Of a DNA stretch of 25,759 bases, positions 348 to 20,157 are shown one piece after another (the first letter of the stretch is position 1; every line of letters begins with the position of its first letter). This stretch comes from a virus. A program made the translations under genes and the position numbers. The stretch is taken from positions 1 through 25,759 of IMG/VR virus record IMGVR_UViG_3300043409_000303; one strand, 5' to 3'. Below the pieces are notes generated by a model, which was not told where the DNA came from, ran no database searches, and saw nothing but the letters and a program-made list of their open reading frames with translations.

Positions 348-575
348 TCATATAATCATTGCAGCTATGACACATATTAGACTGCCAACGGATGCTATGA
401 ATGCCACTTTGATCCATAGTACGAGCCGCCTATCATCTTCATCCCAACTACTTGATATATAGCCCCGCCCTATGCCGCGAGGAGCGTTTAGGTAGGGTAG
501 ATACCCATCATAGTTCTTGCTGCGTTCTGCGCCTTCTCGTGACGTTCTGGGGGATGTATCGTAATTTGAGTTCAT
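348..575 (-). CDS. small single-pass membrane protein, hypothetical
   Basis: A 75-residue protein with a polar, Arg/Ser/Tyr-rich N-terminal half and one strongly hydrophobic C-terminal segment at about residues 52-75 (LWIKVAFIASVGSLICVIAA). This predicts a tail-anchored inner-membrane protein with its N-terminus in the cytoplasm. Its ATG overlaps the stop of the upstream gene (ATGA), and the Shine-Dalgarno lies inside the end of that gene, so translation should be coupled. I do not recognise a family. Small membrane proteins in early phage operons can act in host takeover or exclusion, but nothing here shows this. Confidence 0.6.
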   Translation of the reverse strand: MNSNYDTSPRTSREGAERSKNYDGYLPYLNAPRGIGRGYISSSWDEDDRRLVLWIKVAFIASVGSLICVIAAMII

Positions 576-907
576 GTGTTCTTCTCCTTTATCTTGGCTT
601 CAATGGTTCGGATAGCCGCATTGACAGATTGACCTGACTTCACGCAATAGCGCGCGGCATCATCAACTTCCTCATCCGTCAGACCCAACCATTCACGATG
701 CGTGTAAAGTGGTATCCATCCCAAGTCTCTCGGATGTTGCTCACAAATTGTTGCTTCAAATCCAATTTCGGGGCATATCTGTTCATACTCAGGGTCAGGG
801 TTAAGCCATGCTATTGGTCTGCTCATTTTTGGTGGGCAGACAGGCATATTACCCCCTCCTACAAAATGAGAACCTGATTCCACTCCGCATTTTGGGCATT
901 CACTCAT
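572..907 (-). CDS. hypothetical protein with N-terminal zinc-ribbon-like motif
   Basis: A 111-residue protein. It opens with CPKCG (residues 4-8) and has further cysteines near residues 24, 45 and 55, so a small zinc-binding ribbon is possible. The middle contains WIPLYTHREW followed by LTDEEVDDAARY, a combination typical of small accessory phage proteins. The C-terminus is a charged helix ending in KEKNT, the same tail found on neighbouring proteins because the Shine-Dalgarno of the next gene is embedded in this sequence. It overlaps its neighbours on both sides by four bases. Function is unknown. Confidence 0.65.
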   Translation of the reverse strand: MSECPKCGVESGSHFVGGGNMPVCPPKMSRPIAWLNPDPEYEQICPEIGFEATICEQHPRDLGWIPLYTHREWLGLTDEEVDDAARYCVKSGQSVNAAIRTIEAKIKEKNT

Positions 908-1104
908 GCGCTTTCCTTAGTGTCAGTCCACTTCCATCCAATGAAAATGTAGGTCATCTTTTGGTGAAACCAATTTGGGCGTTCTACTAGACATATTCTC
1001 ATGCCGTTCGTGCCACCAATACTCCAATGTCCGCTATATACTGGGGCTGGGGCTATATAGGTAATTGGGTTGAATGTGATATGTTGTGGTGTGCTATCAC
1101 TCAT
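904..1104 (-). CDS. hypothetical small protein
   Basis: A 66-residue protein of unknown function. It is rich in aromatic residues (PVYSGHWSIGG, NWFHQKMTYIFIGWKW) and looks like a small beta-rich globular domain with no membrane segment or known motif. The start ATG is set by the shared junction cassette just upstream, with GGAG seven bases before the ATG and the stop of the preceding 59-codon gene overlapping it as ATGA. The downstream gene begins in the same ATGA fashion. The consistent spacing supports the gene as real even though I cannot assign it. Confidence 0.6.
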   Translation of the reverse strand: MSDSTPQHITFNPITYIAPAPVYSGHWSIGGTNGMRICLVERPNWFHQKMTYIFIGWKWTDTKESA

Positions 1105-1280
1105 GTGTTCTCCTTGTCATAAGCAACTAAAGCGGCATGTGCAGCAGCATAAGTTTCCCAACAATCGGCATAAGCAACGTCAGCAGCATACGTTGCCCTA
1201 GCATCAGCAACATCTGAGGCAGCATTATAAGCAACCATCGCATCCTCAACTGCCCTCACTAGTTCTTCTCTTGTACTCAT
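1101..1280 (-). CDS. alanine-rich 59-residue protein (overlooked small ORF)
   Basis: Minus-strand translation from the ATG at 1280 gives 59 codons ending in TGA at 1101-1103. It begins MSTREELVRAVEDAMVAY, continues with repeated Ala/Tyr/Asp clusters (ATYAADVAYAD, TYAAAHAALVAY) and ends DKENT. The start overlaps the upstream stop as ATGA, and the end overlaps the next start the same way, each with the conserved GGAGAACAC Shine-Dalgarno cassette, so the gene fills exactly what would otherwise be a 170-base hole. The composition suggests one long, Ala-rich amphipathic helix or helical hairpin. Function is unknown. Confidence 0.75.
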   Translation of the reverse strand: MSTREELVRAVEDAMVAYNAASDVADARATYAADVAYADCWETYAAAHAALVAYDKENT

Positions 1281-1570
1281 GTGTTCTCCTCATTTAACTT
1301 TTTACCTACACCCATTCCCTTCTCATTCAGCTTAAAAAGCCATTCCCCTTCTTTTCCCATCTCAACGCTTACAAGCCCCGTTGCTACAGTTCCTAGCATC
1401 GCGCGAACATATTTCATGTTCTCGCCACAATGCTCTATCCATTTCGGAGCAACCTCCCATAGCCGTTCTCCCGACTGATCTCTAATCGCTGCGACTAGGT
1501 TCGCCGCCTGCTGTCGCTCCCATCCACACTCAACTAGGTAGTCAATACTCTGCTCTATTGGGTTACTCAT
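1277..1570 (-). CDS. hypothetical protein
   Basis: A 97-residue soluble protein, family not recognised. The N-terminal part (SIDYLVECGWERQQAANLVAAIRDQ) looks helical with a UBA-like or small helical-bundle rhythm. The middle has WIEHCGENMKYVRAMLGTVATG and the C-terminus is Gly/Lys/Glu rich, ending in EENT within the junction cassette. Start and stop both overlap the adjacent genes by four bases. No catalytic or metal-binding pattern is evident. Confidence 0.6.
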   Translation of the reverse strand: MSNPIEQSIDYLVECGWERQQAANLVAAIRDQSGERLWEVAPKWIEHCGENMKYVRAMLGTVATGLVSVEMGKEGEWLFKLNEKGMGVGKKLNEENT

Positions 1571-1836
1571 GTGTTCTTCTCCTTGTATTTCTCATTTAAA
1601 GCCTTCAGCATCTCTATTTGTTTGCTCAAACGCTTGATCTCCCACTTCCTTCTGTGATTACTCATCTCAGTCAGTAGAGCGAACACGGTTTCAATATCCT
1701 GTTCATATGTATAGACCTGCTCCACTAGGTACATACAAATCAAAGGTATTATATCCTCTGTCTCGAGATTGCATACTACGTTATCAAACGCATCAAATGT
1801 CTGCACAGTTTCGCTATACTCTTCGATATTTTTCAT
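1567..1836 (-). CDS. hypothetical helical protein
   Basis: An 89-residue acidic protein. Residues about 1-30 are Glu/Asp rich, residues about 30-40 are more hydrophobic (IIPLICMYLVEQVY), and the last third is a charged probable coiled coil (RKWEIKRLSKQIEMLKALNEKYKEKNT region). The ATG at 1836 overlaps the previous stop as TAATG and is preceded by GAGGTGA at good spacing. The C-terminus again ends in KEKNT because of the junction cassette. No family is recognised. Confidence 0.6.
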   Translation of the reverse strand: MKNIEEYSETVQTFDAFDNVVCNLETEDIIPLICMYLVEQVYTYEQDIETVFALLTEMSNHRRKWEIKRLSKQIEMLKALNEKYKEKNT

Positions 1837-2126
1837 TAGAAGTCACCTCTATTAATTGGATCAGCCTGTCCGTGGCGTGGATCGTCCATTATCTCGTCTA
1901 TGTCGCGTCCATCCTCATCCATTATTGCCATTCTTATTTCTGCATCTTCTTCGGACCTTATTTCCTTACGCCACTCACCATCCTCATAATCTTTGATTAT
2001 TGCTATATAAGATTCCAATAGCTGTTTTTGAGTCGCTTCATCTGCTCGACTGTATGACAGAACGAGCCGAGCCATCGATACCTGATAGTCAGTTGTAGAC
2101 TTATTTAATATCTTTTTAATGTCCAT
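1836..2126 (-). CDS. hypothetical acidic protein
   Basis: A 96-residue protein starting MDIKKILNKSTTDYQVSMAR. I chose the ATG at 2126 because it follows AAAGGA with about seven bases spacing and overlaps the end of the upstream small gene. An earlier in-frame start at 2189 lies inside that upstream gene and lacks a comparable Shine-Dalgarno. The N-terminal half is helical (LVLSYSRADEATQKQLLESY); the C-terminal half is very acidic (EEDAEIRMAIMDEDGRDIDE) and ends in a basic/Gly tail. Function is unknown. Confidence 0.6.
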   Translation of the reverse strand: MDIKKILNKSTTDYQVSMARLVLSYSRADEATQKQLLESYIAIIKDYEDGEWRKEIRSEEDAEIRMAIMDEDGRDIDEIMDDPRHGQADPINRGDF

Positions 2127-2396: not shown

Positions 2397-2411
2397 TTGT
2401 ATCTCCTTAGA

Positions 2412-2430
2412 ACCCCCCCGTGTGGGGGGT
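2412..2430 (-). promoter_or_regulatory. GC-only hairpin between two small genes
   Basis: A perfect seven-base-pair stem (six G-C pairs and one A-T) with a five-base loop lies in the 43-base gap between the gene ending at 2440 and the Shine-Dalgarno of the gene starting at 2396. On the minus strand it is followed by TTCTAAGGAG rather than a U-tract, so it is not a standard terminator. A role in mRNA processing, 3'-end protection or translational insulation is inferred. Confidence 0.5.
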
Positions 2431-2439
2431 GGCTGTCAA

Positions 2440-2622
2440 TCAATCAGTAAGAACGAATTGGTTACTACTACAGGCAAAATTCTCGTCAGTTGTGGTCGAG
2501 CGAACAAAAATGCGAGATGCGTGTTTTTCACAAACACTCTCTATAAAATAAACCGCATCAGATTTAGGATTGATCTTAAAAAACTCACCAATCTTTACGT
2601 CTTTAAGTTTGCATCGTGTCAT
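2440..2622 (-). CDS. hypothetical small protein, first gene of the left operon
   Basis: A 60-residue protein starting MTRCKLKDVKIGEFFKI, followed by AVYFIESVCEKHASRIFVRS and ending NQFVLTD. The pattern of short beta strands with a KxGEFF motif matches a class of small phage proteins usually left unnamed. The ATG is preceded by AGGAGATACAA, an excellent Shine-Dalgarno. It is the first gene after the SSB terminator and the AT-rich putative promoter, so it probably heads a separate transcript covering all the small genes to its left. Function is unknown. Confidence 0.6.
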   Translation of the reverse strand: MTRCKLKDVKIGEFFKINPKSDAVYFIESVCEKHASRIFVRSTTTDENFACSSNQFVLTD

Positions 2623-2701
2623 TTGTATCTCCTGTTTTGGGCTTCAAAATGAGTCCCGATAAAGAATTATGAGTCAATGTATTAGAAAAGGCAACATATT
2701 T

Positions 2702-2824: not shown

Positions 2825-3235
2825 TCAGAAGGGTAAATTATCATCCATATCATCAAAGGGAGTTTTGTAAGGGTCTGGTTTTTCAGTCTTTATAGGAACT
2901 ACGTTACCCGTCTCTTTTGCCTTTCCACCTAAGAATTGAATGGTATCAGCCGCGATCTTAGTAGAGTATTTCGTTACACCAGACTTGTCCTCATACTTGT
3001 CCGTTTGCAGCCGACCTTGTACGAACACCTGAGAGCCTTTGCCGATGTACTGACCGCAAAGTTCTGCCAGCTTGCCAAACGCTGAAATATTTACCCACTC
3101 AACCCCTTCACTTTTTTTGGTTTTCCAATCACAAGCAATACTGAAACTAGCTACAGAATCGCCAGCCGGGGTGACGCGCAACTCTACATCCCGCCCTAAT
3201 CTCCCGATACCACTCCACTGATTCAAATCAGACAT
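2825..3235 (-). CDS. ssb: single-stranded DNA-binding protein
   Basis: A 136-residue OB-fold SSB of bacterial type. The N-terminal domain (about residues 5-105) has the family landmarks GRLGRDVELRVTPAGDSVA, FSIACDW, EWVNISAFGKLAELC, YIGKGSQVFVQGRL and YEDKSGVTKYSTKI. A short linker then leads to the acidic C-terminal tip DDMDDNLPF, the tail that in SSB proteins docks replication and recombination partners. It overlaps the exonuclease gene by eight bases and is last in the operon before a strong terminator. Its job is to coat single-stranded DNA during phage replication and during annealing by the neighbouring recombination proteins. Confidence 0.95.
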   Translation of the reverse strand: MSDLNQWSGIGRLGRDVELRVTPAGDSVASFSIACDWKTKKSEGVEWVNISAFGKLAELCGQYIGKGSQVFVQGRLQTDKYEDKSGVTKYSTKIAADTIQFLGGKAKETGNVVPIKTEKPDPYKTPFDDMDDNLPF

Positions 3236-3845
3236 TTTTATTCTCCAATTGATTGATTAATACCTCTACTTCGCCTAAAAATTTATGCACTTCTTCTTCC
3301 ATCGTTTCTATTAGAGCGTCATCCCGATCCAGCCTGACTATAAATAACTGTAGATGCTCTGGCACTCTAGGATCAAACGATACAAAGTCGCACCAGGCCC
3401 GACCTGTTACCCACATCTGGGTCTGCATCTGATTGATGTAAGCAGCCGGGGCTTTCTTGTCGAGCAAATAGCCTAAGTGAGTCTGGGTATTAGGACACTT
3501 AATTTCTAATAGACCTCCTGTATCGTTCAGAAGCCCATCAGGTGAGGCGCCTAGCCATTTTATCGTAGGGTGAGTATAGAACTCCGCCTCGTCTACAATA
3601 CGCCCAGTAGCGGCTGCATATCGCATCCTAGCGTAAGGCTCCTGCTCTGTACCCCACAACATCGCCGCAGAACTGAAACTATCAGCAACTTGACCTGTGA
3701 CACGTTCTGCAATTATCTGCATACGGTATTTGGCGCGGGTGACGGCCTCTCCTGATTTCCCCTTTGCTAGTACGTCACTCATCCGGCTGGCTGTGACTGA
3801 ACCAAGACGGCTTTTAAACCAAGCCTCGCTTCCCTGAGTAATCAT
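3228..3845 (-). CDS. YqaJ-type (lambda-exonuclease-like) recombinase nuclease
   Basis: A 205-residue PD-(D/E)XK exonuclease of the YqaJ/lambda Exo superfamily. It starts with the family's N-terminal substrate-entry motif (GSEAWFKSRLGSVTASRM, near residues 5-22). The acidic Glu region (WGTEQEPYARMRY) follows. The catalytic core is WLGASPDGL ... GGLLEIKCP, giving Asp and Glu-x-Lys, and there is a conserved Gln helix (YINQMQTQMWVTGR). Such enzymes resect double-stranded ends 5' to 3' to leave 3' overhangs for a single-strand annealing protein. The Rad52/ERF-like gene two positions upstream and SSB immediately downstream give the standard phage recombination triad. Confidence 0.9.
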   Translation of the reverse strand: MITQGSEAWFKSRLGSVTASRMSDVLAKGKSGEAVTRAKYRMQIIAERVTGQVADSFSSAAMLWGTEQEPYARMRYAAATGRIVDEAEFYTHPTIKWLGASPDGLLNDTGGLLEIKCPNTQTHLGYLLDKKAPAAYINQMQTQMWVTGRAWCDFVSFDPRVPEHLQLFIVRLDRDDALIETMEEEVHKFLGEVEVLINQLENKNV

Positions 3846-11006: not shown

Positions 11007-13468
11007 TAGGTTGGGTAGACTAGGTCTACTCTCGTATTAAGTGCCACGCCAGTTGTGAATACTACTGAAGTTCCGCTTGTTACCGTTACGTCAGCAGCGT
11101 TAACCATCTTTACCCCGTTTGCATATACGTCAATCTTACCAGATATGTATGTCGCGCTGGTGGTAAAGGTGGTCTGAGCAGCCGTAGCGGTAAACTGGTC
11201 ATAGATCATCTTGCCAGCGACTACCCCGGCAGCTACCCCGTTCGCAGTTGTAGCCGTTCCAGCAGTCAAACCAGTTGCCGTACCTGTGCAGCTAGTAAGA
11301 ACGCCAGCCGATGGAGTGCCAAGATTAGGCGTTACCAATACAGGAGAGGTGTCTACTACAAACTTTGTTCCCGTTCCTGTCTGAGAAGCAATGCTCGTGG
11401 CGTTGCCTACAGAAGTTATTGCGCCAGTTAAATTCGCGTTAGTAGTTACATTACTCGCAGTGAAAGCCGTTGCCGTTCCAGAGATGTTTGTTCCGACCAG
11501 TGCAGTCGGAGTGCCGAGTGCTGGTGTAACGAGTGTCGGAGATGTTGCCCGAACGAATACTCCTGTGCCTGTTCCCGTGTATTCCGCAGCGGTCGAGTGG
11601 TAATACTCACCTGCCGAGCCGCCATTCAGACCCGCTAGATCGTTGTGGAGATTCGCTAGTGGAGAGTTAACGTGCGTGTTTCTCTCTGTGCCGTTATAGG
11701 TCAGTGTGATAGTTCGCGTATGATCAGAAGTAACAAAGCCTAAAATCCCTAGCTTAGTTGCTACCGTAACATTGGTTGAAGGCTGAGTTATATACGCATC
11801 TAGTTGTGAATAATCGGGCGAGATGGAAGTTATATTCGGAGTTGTTACTCCAAAGAGTTTCTTCCATACCGTACCCGCTACTGCTGATTCGTTTGTGTAT
11901 CCGCTTAGTGTTGCGATAGTAACTACTGTATCTGAAGTTCTGCCCGTGATCTGATAAATCCCGTTCGGGGTTTGTAGATAGGAAGATACCAGCACACTTG
12001 CAGAAGCATCAATAACTGCCGCAGCGAAAGGCGTTCCAGCCGATGCCGTAGCGGTTCTACTTGTTCCCGTTCCCGTGGTCGTAATCGTTCCAGTGACAAG
12101 TGGAATCGCAGTATAAATCTGCCGCGTGATCGTAGTGATTGATCCACTAGCGTGGCTATCAACTCCAGCCCAGATTGTAAAATCCCAGATACCCGCATCG
12201 AATATAGTCCGACCAAGAGCAGCCGAAACAAAAGCGGAAAAGCATACCGTGTCACTAACCGCCGTTCCAGAGATGGTCTGTTCTGCGGTAGTAACGGGGA
12301 TGGTTGCGAATGTCGAAATGGGTATAGCGTTATTCGCCCCGACAGGAGTTATGTTAGGGGTCGCGTTATAAAATACAACGCCCGTACCTGCTGACGATGT
12401 ATCCGAATTCGCGTTAGCCCAAGCCGTTCCGTTATATCTCAATACCTGATTAACCAGCGGGGTTCCAATCGTTACTTCATTCAGATTGGATAACGGGATA
12501 TCTATACTTGCCGAGCCATTAAATGAAACGCCAGCAATGTTACGCGCAGTAGTTAGGGTCGCAGCCGATCCCGTAGTGTCTGCATTGATGGTCGCTGGTA
12601 GAGAAAGAGTCACCGCACCAGTCGGAGAGGATACGTCTATCTCGTTTGCTGTTCCTGTGATAGAGACTACAGCCCCATCACCTTTATCGTTAAAGGTATT
12701 CCAGTCGGTAGAACTTAAATACCCAGAGGTAGAAGTTCCCGCAGCACTGATGCTTATATCAGGAGTCGCGCCACCAGTAGACGAGATAGGGCTTGTTCCA
12801 GTAACCGAAGTGACCGTGCCAACACTGATCGAACCACCAAGACTTGTAGACGATCCGTTGATTGTGATCGCAGAATTGACTAGCTTATTATTCGCTATCG
12901 AACCCGCCAGCATTGTATTGGTGACGGTCGAGGTGTCCGTTGTGTAGACACCATCCGTTACCGTTCCAGCATTGCCGCCAATTGACAGACCAGAGGCAGT
13001 GCCAGAGATATTAGTTCCGACCAAAGCGGTCGGAGTTCCGAGAGCCGGAGTGATGAGAGTCGGGCTAGTTGCCAGAACATTATCACCCGTCCCCGTATTC
13101 GCTACACTAACAAGATTACTAGACCCGTCTGTAGCCACTGCATACGAGGCTGTAAGCCCCGATATGTTCGCGCCTGATACAGACACTACCCCGGAGTCAT
13201 CCAGCGTAGCTGTGGAGTTCTGAATAAGAAGTCCAGTTGCACCATCGAATCGAGTTATAGCGTTGTCGGTAGATGAACCGGGGCCAACTACATCCCCCGA
13301 TCCAGCCCCGCCAGTGTTAACCGTGACGATAGATTCTGTTCCATCATCCTTCTTCATGTACAACTTACCATCGTATGTATTGATAGCAAGTTCACCCAAA
13401 GCCAAGTCAGTAGTCAGCGGAACCTTAGCGGCAACCGCTGACCGTTTAATCTTGATACTGTTAGCCAT
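11006..13468 (-). CDS. tail fibre protein with internal repeats
   Basis: An 820-residue Thr/Gly/Ala/Ser-rich fibre. The N-terminal 50 residues (IKIKRSAVAAKVP, then DLALGELAINTYDGKLYMKK) form the small head domain common to phage fibres. The shaft is made of short beta repeats with copies of TSPTLITPALGTPTALVGTN at about 134-153 and again near 640, and a third variant TSPVLVTPNLGTPSAGVL near 700. STDWNTFNDK near 255 is a widespread fibre motif. The last 60 residues (QTTFTTSATYISGKIDVYAN ... GVALNTRVDLVYP) match a terminal beta domain also present in the tip protein. It probably binds the host surface. It shares repeats with the neighbouring fibre gene. Confidence 0.8.
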   Translation of the reverse strand: MANSIKIKRSAVAAKVPLTTDLALGELAINTYDGKLYMKKDDGTESIVTVNTGGAGSGDVVGPGSSTDNAITRFDGATGLLIQNSTATLDDSGVVSVSGANISGLTASYAVATDGSSNLVSVANTGTGDNVLATSPTLITPALGTPTALVGTNISGTASGLSIGGNAGTVTDGVYTTDTSTVTNTMLAGSIANNKLVNSAITINGSSTSLGGSISVGTVTSVTGTSPISSTGGATPDISISAAGTSTSGYLSSTDWNTFNDKGDGAVVSITGTANEIDVSSPTGAVTLSLPATINADTTGSAATLTTARNIAGVSFNGSASIDIPLSNLNEVTIGTPLVNQVLRYNGTAWANANSDTSSAGTGVVFYNATPNITPVGANNAIPISTFATIPVTTAEQTISGTAVSDTVCFSAFVSAALGRTIFDAGIWDFTIWAGVDSHASGSITTITRQIYTAIPLVTGTITTTGTGTSRTATASAGTPFAAAVIDASASVLVSSYLQTPNGIYQITGRTSDTVVTIATLSGYTNESAVAGTVWKKLFGVTTPNITSISPDYSQLDAYITQPSTNVTVATKLGILGFVTSDHTRTITLTYNGTERNTHVNSPLANLHNDLAGLNGGSAGEYYHSTAAEYTGTGTGVFVRATSPTLVTPALGTPTALVGTNISGTATAFTASNVTTNANLTGAITSVGNATSIASQTGTGTKFVVDTSPVLVTPNLGTPSAGVLTSCTGTATGLTAGTATTANGVAAGVVAGKMIYDQFTATAAQTTFTTSATYISGKIDVYANGVKMVNAADVTVTSGTSVVFTTGVALNTRVDLVYPT

Positions 13469-15899: not shown

Positions 15900-16975
15900 G
15901 CTGTGTAACTCCCAGAAGCTGTGAATTTAATGATTGTATTAGCACCTGATGTTGTTATGGTAGGTGAGCCTGTAGTTGTACCTGTGTAATTAACTGTTGG
16001 CACTGAAAGAATAACTACTCCAGAACCACCAGCTAAACTTGTTGTCGTATTGTGACCAGAACTCCCCCCGCCGCCGCCAAGATTTGCAGTACCAGCAGTA
16101 CCAGCAGTACCAGAGCTATTCCCACCATTTCCACCACCACCATTTCCACCTGCGCCACCAGCCCCACCCCCAGTATAAGACCCACCGCCACCACCGCCAC
16201 CATAATTTACTGATGAACCTGTTATAGATGATGCAGTTCCAGCGCCTCCGGCTGAACCAGTAATTGTAGATGTATCAGCTCCAACTGCCCCAGCGCCACC
16301 GCCACCAGCTCCACCACCATTTCCATTAGATGATCTACCACCAGCAAATCCCTGACCAGTAGTTTCATTCCCACCATAATAAATACCATTATTTCCGCTT
16401 CCACCCCCACCACACCCGCCACTATTTCCCGATCCAGTAGGGGTATTTGCAGCCCCGGGACTTGTCCCTCCACCACCACCGCCCAATGAAAATACTGAAC
16501 CAAATGAGCTATTTTGCCCATTATAGCCATTGTTTTGTGTTGAAAGAGTTGCGGCTCCACCAGCCCCTACAATAACAGGATATAAGGTTCCAGATGAGAG
16601 AGCTAAAGAACCAGACAATACCCCACCAGCACCGCCACCACCAGCTCTACCACCACCAGCAGCAACCCCAAAACCACTTGCCCCCCCACCAGAAACAACT
16701 AAATAGGTGGCTGCATAAGTACCAATTCCAACCCAAGCTGAACCGTTATAAATCTCCAACAGACTTAGTGTTGTGTTATATCTTTGCATCCCAGTAACAG
16801 GAGAGGGTCTTTGTGCTGTTGTACCTACTGGTAGAGTCCAAGCCCCTGTAGTGCTTGTTGACCCCGTTCCACCGTTAGCTGTTCCCAATGCTCCGCTGAC
16901 TCCCGTTCCTAAAGCAACCTGACCTGATGAGTTTGTATTATTTGCTAACTGACTTAGGTTAAAAGCGTTTGTCAT
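15896..16975 (-). CDS. glycine-rich tail adhesin
   Basis: A 359-residue protein. Residues about 1-90 form a fibre attachment/collar type segment (FNLSQLANNTNSSGQVALG; LPVGTTAQRPSPVTGMQRYN; NGSAWVGIG). Residues about 95-320 are extremely Gly-rich with runs such as GGGRAGGGGAGG, GGGGGGTSPGA and NYGGGGGGGSYTGGG, spaced by short Ser/Asn/Thr segments. This is the pattern of polyglycine-II sandwich adhesins, of which phage S16 gp38 is the solved example. The last 35 residues form a beta cap (GVVILSVPTVNYTGTTTG). It sits right after the tip protein gene, overlapping it by four bases, fitting a host-recognition role. Confidence 0.75.
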   Translation of the reverse strand: MTNAFNLSQLANNTNSSGQVALGTGVSGALGTANGGTGSTSTTGAWTLPVGTTAQRPSPVTGMQRYNTTLSLLEIYNGSAWVGIGTYAATYLVVSGGGASGFGVAAGGGRAGGGGAGGVLSGSLALSSGTLYPVIVGAGGAATLSTQNNGYNGQNSSFGSVFSLGGGGGGTSPGAANTPTGSGNSGGCGGGGSGNNGIYYGGNETTGQGFAGGRSSNGNGGGAGGGGAGAVGADTSTITGSAGGAGTASSITGSSVNYGGGGGGGSYTGGGAGGAGGNGGGGNGGNSSGTAGTAGTANLGGGGGSSGHNTTTSLAGGSGVVILSVPTVNYTGTTTGSPTITTSGANTIIKFTASGSYTA

Positions 16976-19900
16976 GCTGCCCCCGCGCGCGCGAATGTTT
17001 GTTGTAGAAGTATGTTATCAATTATAGTCGGAGTGACTGCTAAAGTATATCCTGTTGATACAGCAGTATAATCCACACCATCTTTTTGTAAAACTCCGTT
17101 TGTATACAAATTAAATCCACCTACCGATAATGAAAACGCATAAGCAGCTTGATCGACTACAGTATTACGAACCACATTTACAGGAGTTCCATTAGGAACA
17201 CCTAGATTATTTGGAGTCCATTGCATTATCTCAAGATCGCCCGTAGTCGCATTGGGAAAGTTTGTAATAGTCTGCCCGATAATATCATAGTCTTGTTCAT
17301 TGATTACCGTTCCATTCAAGAATAAGAGTTCGTATCCAGAATAGATAACAAAGCCAGAGGCCGTATAGCTTCCAGCATCAGTAAGCGTTGCTGAATGTCT
17401 AGTAAATGAGGCATAAGAAGTGCTTGTATTAGTATCGGTCGATCTAAAAGATATAACAGTAATGATATTATCTAATACTATTCCTGTTCCGAACGTCACC
17501 CCGCCAGCCGCGTCCGTGTATTCTGAAGTCTGGCACAATGTTCCCTGATTAAATACGAAACACTGGCCTACTATATAGGACACGTCCCGAGATACCGGGA
17601 AGAATGTCTGCCCACTTGTCGCAGTAAATGTCGATATAGTCATTTCAAAAGTATCGGGTGTGGTGAAGCCTACCACCCGCCCATAAATATCAATGGTGAG
17701 CGTTGATGGTGTGGTTGTATAGGTATAAACACCGCTTCCAAAATCCAGATATGGGGCTAGTTGAGCCACTACAATTCCCGCGTCATTGTTAGTTACTAAT
17801 ATCTCCCCTGTCCCGGTACTTGTAGTTCCTACTTTTAATAACTGCCCTGTTCTTATATCCAGATCAACAAAATTAATTCCGTCAGGCAAAGCCGCCCATA
17901 TTGTAGGATCAAATAGACCTGTCTCATAAGGAACAAAAGCCGCAGTTCCAGAAGCGTAGATAGCAAATCCTGTATCAAAAGACATCTTGCGACCAGTTCT
18001 ATTTGTATATAAAGGATAAACTGAAGTTCCAAAAGTAGGCTCGGCCAAATACCAAGAGTATGCTGCTGGATTAGTGCTAGGCGTTACGCTGTTTTGATTA
18101 AGTAATCCATAATATGATTTACCTCTAGGATTAAGATTAAAGCCCGTACCTGTGATCGTATCGGCATAAGCGATAACTAAGTATTGTTCTGAGTATTGGA
18201 AGGTCGTGGGCCGCCATTCAAAGACCGCACTAGGCAGACTGAAGCTAGACGCCCCTAGACTATTCATCATTCGAGTGACGAAATACCAATCCCCAGAAGG
18301 AATCCCCGCCAAAGAGATTAATGGGAGGACTGTATTAGTATTCCACGGAGTTCCGTTTGCCTGTACCTCGCTAGTACCTGCAAAGATTAATTGCGCCTCT
18401 GTAGGGCTTGCAAACGCGGTGTAATACAGTTCTGCATACTGAGAGATGCCAGCACCCGGAGTCGTTACTTGAACTAAGAATAAAGGATTAACCGCAGTCG
18501 GATAAGAAGTAGCTACTATAGGCGGTGGAACCGTTCCAAATACTAAAGGGTCGCCTATACCAGAGTTTGGGCTTGGTTGGAATTGGGTTATAGCTACATC
18601 ATCATAAACCGCTGGATTAAATTCCATCAAGAGCAGGTTAACTATAATCGCCCCGTCATCCTTAAAGGTCTGTGATGATTTGTTAGTGCGGAATAATTTA
18701 TCTACCCAACCATAGTTAGCATTGGTCATCGAGATAACATCTCCAGCCTCTATTTGCAATCCTACAAAGCCTACAGAACAAGTGACCTGCAAATCTTCAC
18801 GAGCCGCCTTTAAGAAGCGATTGCCTAGATATTGTGCGCGTACATCATTATTAACGAATGGAACTGTAACGGATTGCTTGTTTACAGGCTCATTGGGGAA
18901 TAGCAGCCCGGGGTCGATCTGCGCCAGATCAAAAGTGGAAGTATTAAATGTATCTTGATTCGATGAATCCGGGAATTTAACTTCTGCAATATTAAAGGTA
19001 TTAGATAAATCTACAGGAGTTACCTGTAGTCCAGATATAATATTACTATCATTTATTTCCATTGCTACTGTGTAGGTTGGCTGCTGAACTATAACTCCCC
19101 ATTGCGCCGTGATCTCGTCGTATCTTAATAAACAATCGCAGCTAGAAGTCATATCCTGTAGCGTTGCCATTATAGTTCTTTGAGTATCTACAGCCCCATC
19201 GAAACGAAACCTAGCTTGGGTTTGAGCTAATCCACCGTCATCTGTATAGGGGAATGATTGATCGCTATAAACATCTAAAGCGTCGAGACTTTCTGTGTCT
19301 ATCTGCGTGAGAGGTATCGCAGCCCCGTACTTTGTATTAATTAAAAAATCTGATATACATTCTCCGGGCTTATATCGGCTGTTCTTTACTTGGAACTTGG
19401 TCTGGGCTAGACCTCTAATATTTGCTGTGACACTATATGTAAGAACCATAATAACGAAAGCGCAATTCGTCATTAGTTTGCTGTTATCCCATTGATATAC
19501 TAAATCAGCGTTTTGCATAATACTAATAGCTGTGCTGCTTGAATTGGTCGGGCTATTAGAACCGTTATTATAAAAATACATCTGTATCTTTCCAGCTACA
19601 TTCGTTTCTGATTCCCCCGTAGACTCATCTAAAAGAGCGTCTACCTGATATTGATTAGTCGCATTAAATATGCACTTTTTACCCGCAAAAAAAACATCCC
19701 CGAAAGTAATGGTGTCTGGGGTCTGCCCTGTATTTGAATTAGTTACTTCACTTAATGCCAGGACATAAAACATTCTTTGTTCATTATTTGTAATGCTAAG
19801 GTCAACCATTGTTCCGCCGACCCACGCATCCCCATAGATCACGGGTAGCTTATTCGCTGTGGCAGGGGGAACTTGAACTCTATTTCCGGGGTCGCGGGAT

Positions 19901-20157
19901 TGCTCTCCACCACCAGCACCGGGTGCATTAGGGCCACCAATCACCGCAGAAACAGCGAAAGAAATAGCCATTGATACAATTAGATTGACCGCAAAAGATG
20001 CAACCATTAATGCGGTACTAGCTGCAATTGCTGCCATTGCTGCCGTTAAAGATATTTCTAAAACTATCGCTAGAATAATCGCAAAAAATGCGTGGGCTTC
20101 CGCTGTGTAAGTAGCGGTGGTTAGGAATACAAATATTATTGCGGTGAGCTTATCCAC
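16972..20157 (-). CDS. tail tip / host-specificity protein (gpJ-like)
   Basis: A 1061-residue tail tip protein. Residues 1-75 are unusually hydrophobic (TAIIFVFLTTATYTAEAHAF; IAASTALMVASFAVNLIVSM), as in the gpI-like part of tip complexes. From about 85 (GNRVQVPPATANKLPVIYGD) the tail-tip core begins: CISDFLINTKYGAAIP, FPYTDDGGLAQTQARFRFDG, DMTSSCDCLLRYDEITAQWG. Fn3-like segments lie near 560-670 (PLFLVQVTTPG; GDWYFVTRMMNSLGASSFS). The C-terminus carries two beta modules (LFLNGTVINEQDYDIIG; LYTNGVLQKDGVDYTA). It overlaps the upstream GNAT-like gene by 22 bases. Expected to close the tail tube and contact the receptor. Confidence 0.85.
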   Translation of the reverse strand: MDKLTAIIFVFLTTATYTAEAHAFFAIILAIVLEISLTAAMAAIAASTALMVASFAVNLIVSMAISFAVSAVIGGPNAPGAGGGEQSRDPGNRVQVPPATANKLPVIYGDAWVGGTMVDLSITNNEQRMFYVLALSEVTNSNTGQTPDTITFGDVFFAGKKCIFNATNQYQVDALLDESTGESETNVAGKIQMYFYNNGSNSPTNSSSTAISIMQNADLVYQWDNSKLMTNCAFVIMVLTYSVTANIRGLAQTKFQVKNSRYKPGECISDFLINTKYGAAIPLTQIDTESLDALDVYSDQSFPYTDDGGLAQTQARFRFDGAVDTQRTIMATLQDMTSSCDCLLRYDEITAQWGVIVQQPTYTVAMEINDSNIISGLQVTPVDLSNTFNIAEVKFPDSSNQDTFNTSTFDLAQIDPGLLFPNEPVNKQSVTVPFVNNDVRAQYLGNRFLKAAREDLQVTCSVGFVGLQIEAGDVISMTNANYGWVDKLFRTNKSSQTFKDDGAIIVNLLLMEFNPAVYDDVAITQFQPSPNSGIGDPLVFGTVPPPIVATSYPTAVNPLFLVQVTTPGAGISQYAELYYTAFASPTEAQLIFAGTSEVQANGTPWNTNTVLPLISLAGIPSGDWYFVTRMMNSLGASSFSLPSAVFEWRPTTFQYSEQYLVIAYADTITGTGFNLNPRGKSYYGLLNQNSVTPSTNPAAYSWYLAEPTFGTSVYPLYTNRTGRKMSFDTGFAIYASGTAAFVPYETGLFDPTIWAALPDGINFVDLDIRTGQLLKVGTTSTGTGEILVTNNDAGIVVAQLAPYLDFGSGVYTYTTTPSTLTIDIYGRVVGFTTPDTFEMTISTFTATSGQTFFPVSRDVSYIVGQCFVFNQGTLCQTSEYTDAAGGVTFGTGIVLDNIITVISFRSTDTNTSTSYASFTRHSATLTDAGSYTASGFVIYSGYELLFLNGTVINEQDYDIIGQTITNFPNATTGDLEIMQWTPNNLGVPNGTPVNVVRNTVVDQAAYAFSLSVGGFNLYTNGVLQKDGVDYTAVSTGYTLAVTPTIIDNILLQQTFARAGAA

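Follow-up and report, generated by a model that had tools for sequence, protein, structure and literature searches.

The window, by which we mean the whole stretch of 25,759 nucleotides analysed here (IMG/VR virus record IMGVR_UViG_3300043409_000303), carries on its minus strand an array of small genes that runs, in order, from F1 through genes for proteins of 89, 97, 59, 66 and 111 aa to F3. F1 and F3 are the conserved anchors of a variable island, and four of the small genes between them end in a joint of the form GGAG(AAG)AACACATGA, the fifth joint having diverged. All joint copies in the window lie on the minus strand, and every array junction from the 89-aa gene onward has the ATGA stop/start overlap. 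The features of the array are the following.

1836..2126, minus strand: F1, 96 aa, conserved left anchor of the variable island, kept in 39 of 39 distinct islands
1837..1850, minus strand: exit of F1, AGAGGTGACTTCTA then TAATG, the ribosome-binding site (RBS) for the first gene of the island, whichever it is
1567..1836, minus strand: 89-aa insert (families F19/f46), ending KYKEKNT; a 95% identical copy is the sole insert in locus L363
1567..1584, minus strand: joint 1, exact AAGGAGAAGAACACATGA
1277..1570, minus strand: 97-aa insert, an open reading frame ending LNEENT; tblastn relative in L371 (73% over residues 1-75)
1277..1294, minus strand: joint 2, AATGAGGAGAACACATGA, with 2 mismatches
1101..1280, minus strand: 59-aa insert of the REELVKAVE...AYDKENT family (F4/f10)
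1101..1115, minus strand: joint 3, exact AAGGAGAACACATGA
904..1104, minus strand: 66-aa insert, with a 74% identical relative in a more distant phage (L060/L016)
904..918, minus strand: joint 4, diverged, AAGGAAAGCGCATGA
572..907, minus strand: 111-aa insert with the C-terminal tail domain WxGLTDEE...EAKIKEKNT
572..589, minus strand: joint 5, exact AAGGAGAAGAACACATGA, ahead of F3
348..575, minus strand: F3, 75 aa, conserved right anchor, encoded by 64 viral loci

A sequence-only reading of this DNA had described a near-identical cassette beginning with AAGGAG at four junctions between positions 572 and 1590, with a diverged fifth. The repetition is real: exact copies of AAGGAGAAGAACACATGA lie at 572-589 and 1567-1584, an exact AAGGAGAACACATGA at 1101-1115 and AATGAGGAGAACACATGA, with 2 mismatches, at 1277-1294, while the diverged junction lies at 904-918. 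The copy at 1277-1294, however, has no AAGGAG in that register, and the array in fact begins with the gene at 1836 and reaches the start codon at 575. Chance would hardly produce such copies, since the 18-mer was seen 3 times in the window against a shuffled expectation of 0.01, and for the 15-mer, when as many as 3 mismatches are allowed, 8 copies stand against an expected 0.81. The bodies of the array genes do not cluster with one another, in agreement with the same reading, and their products end in KEKNT (111 and 89 aa), EENT (97 aa), KENT (59 aa) and, at the diverged joint, KESA. The shared C-terminal residues ascribed to the cassette are thus present, but the ending of the 111-aa protein belongs in part to a widespread homologous domain and not to the joint alone. 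None of the inserted genes of the window could be placed in a usable Pfam or PHROG family (the 111-aa protein has no Pfam match, and its PHROG matches all have E above 0.1), and megablast of the first 12 kb against named phages found no match. The best named relative of the tail-tip protein (16972-20157, minus strand) is in Methylophilaceae phage P19250A (54% over 95%), the nearest isolate by this protein, in which the joint is absent. The host may tentatively be a freshwater betaproteobacterium, perhaps of the methylotrophic Methylophilaceae, the term freshwater following from this nearest isolate and from matches to betaproteobacterial MAGs.

We then compared the island among relatives, which were collected by their exonuclease or F3 protein and not by the motif, save for a few F3 loci found with the motif (e.g. 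L076). All counted islands retain F1 and F3, and removal of duplicates left 39 distinct islands, from IMG/VR contigs that are metagenomic and often partial and whose genes were called with a simple program. These islands show 22 content states: 14 are empty, and the others hold one to five small genes, drawn from 19 inserted families in varying order. The f10 family alone has eight different left and six different right neighbours, and the order F4-F13 of L365 is reversed to F13-F4 in L378. The joint thus has varying genes beside it, in varying order, whereas a fixed set in a fixed order would have counted against the idea of cassette exchange; gene content differs among the relatives, with breakpoints at the joint. 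Since the islands of more distant relatives are mostly empty, the empty island is probably the ancestral state. In empty islands the F1 tail (AGAGGTGACTTCTA in most) directly abuts the ATG of F3, which is without a joint in every case, whereas in filled islands the same tail abuts the ATG of the first insert and a joint precedes F3. It follows that the inserted unit is ATG-body-GGAG(AAG)AACAC, placed directly before the next ATG and usually overlapping it as ATGA. The F1 exit is the same, or nearly so, ahead of many different first genes, and each optional gene brings the RBS for its successor. (Of the island genes in other loci, one at L444:4493-5062 encodes a Cro-type HTH fused to sigma-70 region 4 [PF13443, E 1e-8; PF04545, E 6e-15], and another, at L444:5237-6004 and in L449, belongs to the phage PAPS reductase family [phrog_424, E 6e-31].)

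The boundaries of these units are sharp. The empty L391 and the single-insert L395 are 100% identical over the first 120 nt of F3, as are L374 and L375, which have different inserts, while upstream of the joint in both pairs the gene bodies are unrelated or absent. In L363 the 89-aa gene is joined to F3 through the exact 18-mer that the window has at 1567-1584 and again at 572-589; the 60 nt on the left are 95% identical to the 89-aa (F19) side of the window and the 60 nt on the right 90% identical to its F3 side, whereas the swapped pairings give 40% and 28%. L363 is thus what one would expect if the window's two exact 18-mers, the first and the last, had crossed over with each other, or else the substrate of the reverse event, and L376 and L401 follow the same pattern. 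Chimeric proteins are encoded in L378 (61 aa), L362 (95 aa), L076 (208 aa) and L370 (109 aa), and one and the same gene, f31, is seen with either of two joint tails, AYDKENT and ADEEKNT. Misassembly was considered as the origin of such variants and judged unlikely, the f37 arrangement recurring in separate samples (L375, L381, L382/L440 and L439). Comparison of the loci thus documents unit structure, gain or loss, reordering and identity at the boundaries. As for the exchange of whole cassettes through short homologies that had been proposed from the window, gain, loss and reordering bounded by the joint are supported, while the part played by 15-18 nt of homology in driving exchange is one that we infer.

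This situation recalls the lambdoid phages, in which short conserved boundary sequences between genes have been put forward as the places where homologous recombination generates mosaic genomes (Susskind and Botstein 1978; Clark et al. 2001, on HK620; both as cited in PMC3029335). The window joint is likewise a short conserved sequence at gene borders, and relatives differ in the modules they contain, the breakpoints lying at this border. Unlike the lambdoid sequences as that account presents them, the joint is repeated many times within a single array, combines stop, RBS and start, and is common to unrelated insert genes and unrelated phage lineages. We regard the window array as a strong new case of this old hypothesis.

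The joint is also specific in its spacer. AACAC is present at 31 of 40 island joints, whereas the 219 other starts of these loci all lack it (Fisher 2e-32, a value that is only indicative because islands share descent and joint counts are not fully independent), and it forms the exit of 16 of 18 insert kinds, so that a short sequence borders otherwise unrelated genes. These figures bear on the explanation that translation alone shaped the joint, each gene having independently reached an optimal Shine-Dalgarno sequence and ATGA coupling with no role for recombination. GGAG is indeed a well-spaced Shine-Dalgarno sequence and the ATGA overlap provides coupling, but the spacer, absent from all those other starts, is left unexplained, and contigs do not hold repeated copies with a permuted spacer; we consider this explanation quite unlikely. 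The control in question replaced AACAC by ACAAC. The 15-mer and the 18-mer each occur in at least 119 IMG/VR stretches, and so the joint is not rare outside the genome of the window; the permuted control also reaches at least 119 stretches, and raw match counts therefore prove nothing. Among the matches listed, however, the target has 91 extra copies within the same stretch over 232 loci, and the permuted spacer has 4 over 120. The copies in 49 long virus records mostly lie a few kb or less apart, and the reversed pattern gave no copies in these records. A longer form, YTNAAGGAGAAGAACACATGA, matched only six stretches in GTDB genomes.

Conservation might also reside in the protein, the DNA merely following a shared C-terminal peptide or domain. 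Many proteins upstream of the joint do share a C-terminal module, W-x-G-L-T-D-E-E ... A-I-E-A-K-L-K-E-K-N-T, and before the joint this module uses all six Leu and both Lys codons, as conservation of protein would predict for these many IMG/VR matches; before ATGA it may also end in NG, NA, NK or NV. Given this free codon choice and these alternative endings, the KLKEKN part of such proteins is protein homology whose DNA happens to read AAGGAGAAGAAC. GGAG within the KLKEKN tail is independent of a coupled start (70% vs 70-78%), so that codon choice alone cannot separate the explanations. In the window, however, only the 111-aa protein has the module, and the endings AYDKENT, IYEVENT, LNEENT and ADEEKNT differ from one another. 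What decides the matter is that four insert kinds (f37, f47, u109 and u189) have their stop 6-11 nt upstream of the next start and hence an AACAC outside the coding frame, which refutes peptide conservation as the full answer; as the main cause of the joint it is very improbable. Independently of this question, WxGLTDEE...EAKLKEKN is a small, widespread phage C-terminal domain found on many different N-termini (window 572-770, L232, L193, L054, L033); its Pfam matches all fall below cut-off, and PHROG offers none that convinces. One tail-domain gene, in L170 near 12922-13086, ends in EKNSL and TAA followed immediately by another AAGGAGAAGAACACATG, which looks like a joint appended to a gene end that was there before.

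The joint reaches beyond the lineage of the window. TerL relatives of L232 have it at 25 of 727 junctions, and AACAC is again the most frequent spacer before ATGA, while in the loci compared this lineage has no core protein in common with that of the window; when proteins of the window were tested, the 111-aa one with the tail domain was alone in finding a match there. Most gene turnover and most variable junctions in the L232 lineage are without the joint. Core-gene relatives of L193 yielded near-identical copies only. A repeated sequence in the same position is known from cluster K mycobacteriophages, whose 13-bp Start-Associated Sequences (SAS) contain AGGAG, lie just upstream of ATG, precede many non-structural genes, often of different families, and are conserved outside the Shine-Dalgarno bases; their consensus is GGGATAGGAGCCC, 3-7 bp upstream of the start, and some are accompanied by 17-bp inverted repeats (ESAS) (PMC3203893). 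The window joints resemble SAS in place and repetition, upstream of several families of non-structural genes, yet their sequence, AAGGAG(AAG)AACAC, has AGGAG alone in common with that consensus, and the SAS passages of that report describe no empty sites, no gain or loss of units and no unit with stop/start overlap. By analogy with the proposal made for SAS, GGAGAACAC could be a regulatory site, bound by a phage or host factor that co-controls the translation of accessory genes. Conservation of spacer bases beyond the Shine-Dalgarno sequence agrees with this, as does the restriction of carriers to accessory genes and F3; but F3 is without the joint whenever the island is empty, so that its regulation would hinge on chance neighbours, and the recognising factor is purely hypothetical. 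We hold a regulatory origin to be unlikely, although regulation and exchange are mutually compatible ideas.

Genes that may mediate exchange lie about 0.7-2.7 kb from the array.

2825..3235, minus strand: single-strand DNA binding protein (SSB; phrog_44, E 1.5e-41)
3228..3845, minus strand: recombination exonuclease of YqaJ/RecE type (phrog_149, E 1.2e-45), its best named relative being annotated YqaJ in Caulobacter phage DMCA
4042..4518, minus strand: single-strand annealing protein (SSAP; phrog_3290, E 4e-50)

In our preferred reading, which we consider likely, the array is where whole genes turn over between F1 and F3 in this lineage of freshwater tailed phages, with the joints acting as short homologies. 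An optional gene uses the RBS left by the preceding gene and leaves a standard RBS for the following one, and any unit can therefore be inserted, removed or reordered without its neighbours losing translation. The 15-18 nt that joints have in common, extended to some 24 nt at most where the KLKEKN tail is present, would serve for crossing over, either between copies of the array or between co-infecting phages, probably mediated by the phage's own SSAP, exonuclease and SSB, and the joint would be kept uniform jointly by exchange and by selection for intact coupling. Phage annealing proteins of the Rad52-like kind are known to build gene mosaics at short imperfect homologies (PMC3945230), and the window phage resembles these relaxed systems in encoding SSAP, exonuclease and SSB; the homologies described there are longer and divergent, without a standard joint, unlike those of the array. 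Moreover, the minimal pairing segment is 23-27 bp for Red beta and 31-34 bp for RecA (PMC3945230), whereas exact identity between joints is 15-18 nt, from which it follows that flanking partial matches help, that rare events suffice or that some joints are simply retained sites.

The last of these options leads to the alternative of illegitimate joining followed by selection, in which genes enter by non-homologous events and the survivors are those that keep the downstream RBS, the joint being a retained site and not a recombination sequence. The shortness of exact homology at the joints is in keeping with it, and the inserts f37, f47, u109 and u189 end 6-11 nt before the retained joint as if joined just upstream; on the other hand, L363 and L376 resemble crossovers inside two joints, and the two tails of f31 are what tail exchange would yield. 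This alternative seems to us rather unlikely. Turnover through joints, as we prefer to see it, is not the only kind in these phages: the SSB-F2 interval of the same phages, empty in 7 of 28 distinct loci, occurs in 16 content states without the AACAC joint, and since junctions of the TerL lineage also turn over without it, the joint is dispensable for turnover. The SSB-to-F2 interval has a second uniform boundary, TTCTAAGGAGATACAA before ATG (window 2397-2440 and 2623-2640, minus strand), some copies of which have a G/C-rich hairpin ahead of them; its exact longer form is rare in viral contigs, with only four loci. No integrase of the kind expected for integron-type cassettes was present among the window proteins scanned, which were part of the window ORFs, and a literature search on T4 stem-loop elements yielded nothing relevant.

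On a broader scale, accessory genes might be interoperable units across unrelated freshwater phage lineages, each carrying the RBS for whatever lies downstream, with the joint persisting because its bearers are exchangeable; we advance this view tentatively, giving it a little less than even credence. Because many joint copies come together here with sites that are empty or hold one or several inserts, with changes of order and with putative products of crossing over, the boundary-sequence hypothesis becomes directly testable, and the array points to a simple way in which small phage genes may stay expressed wherever they land.
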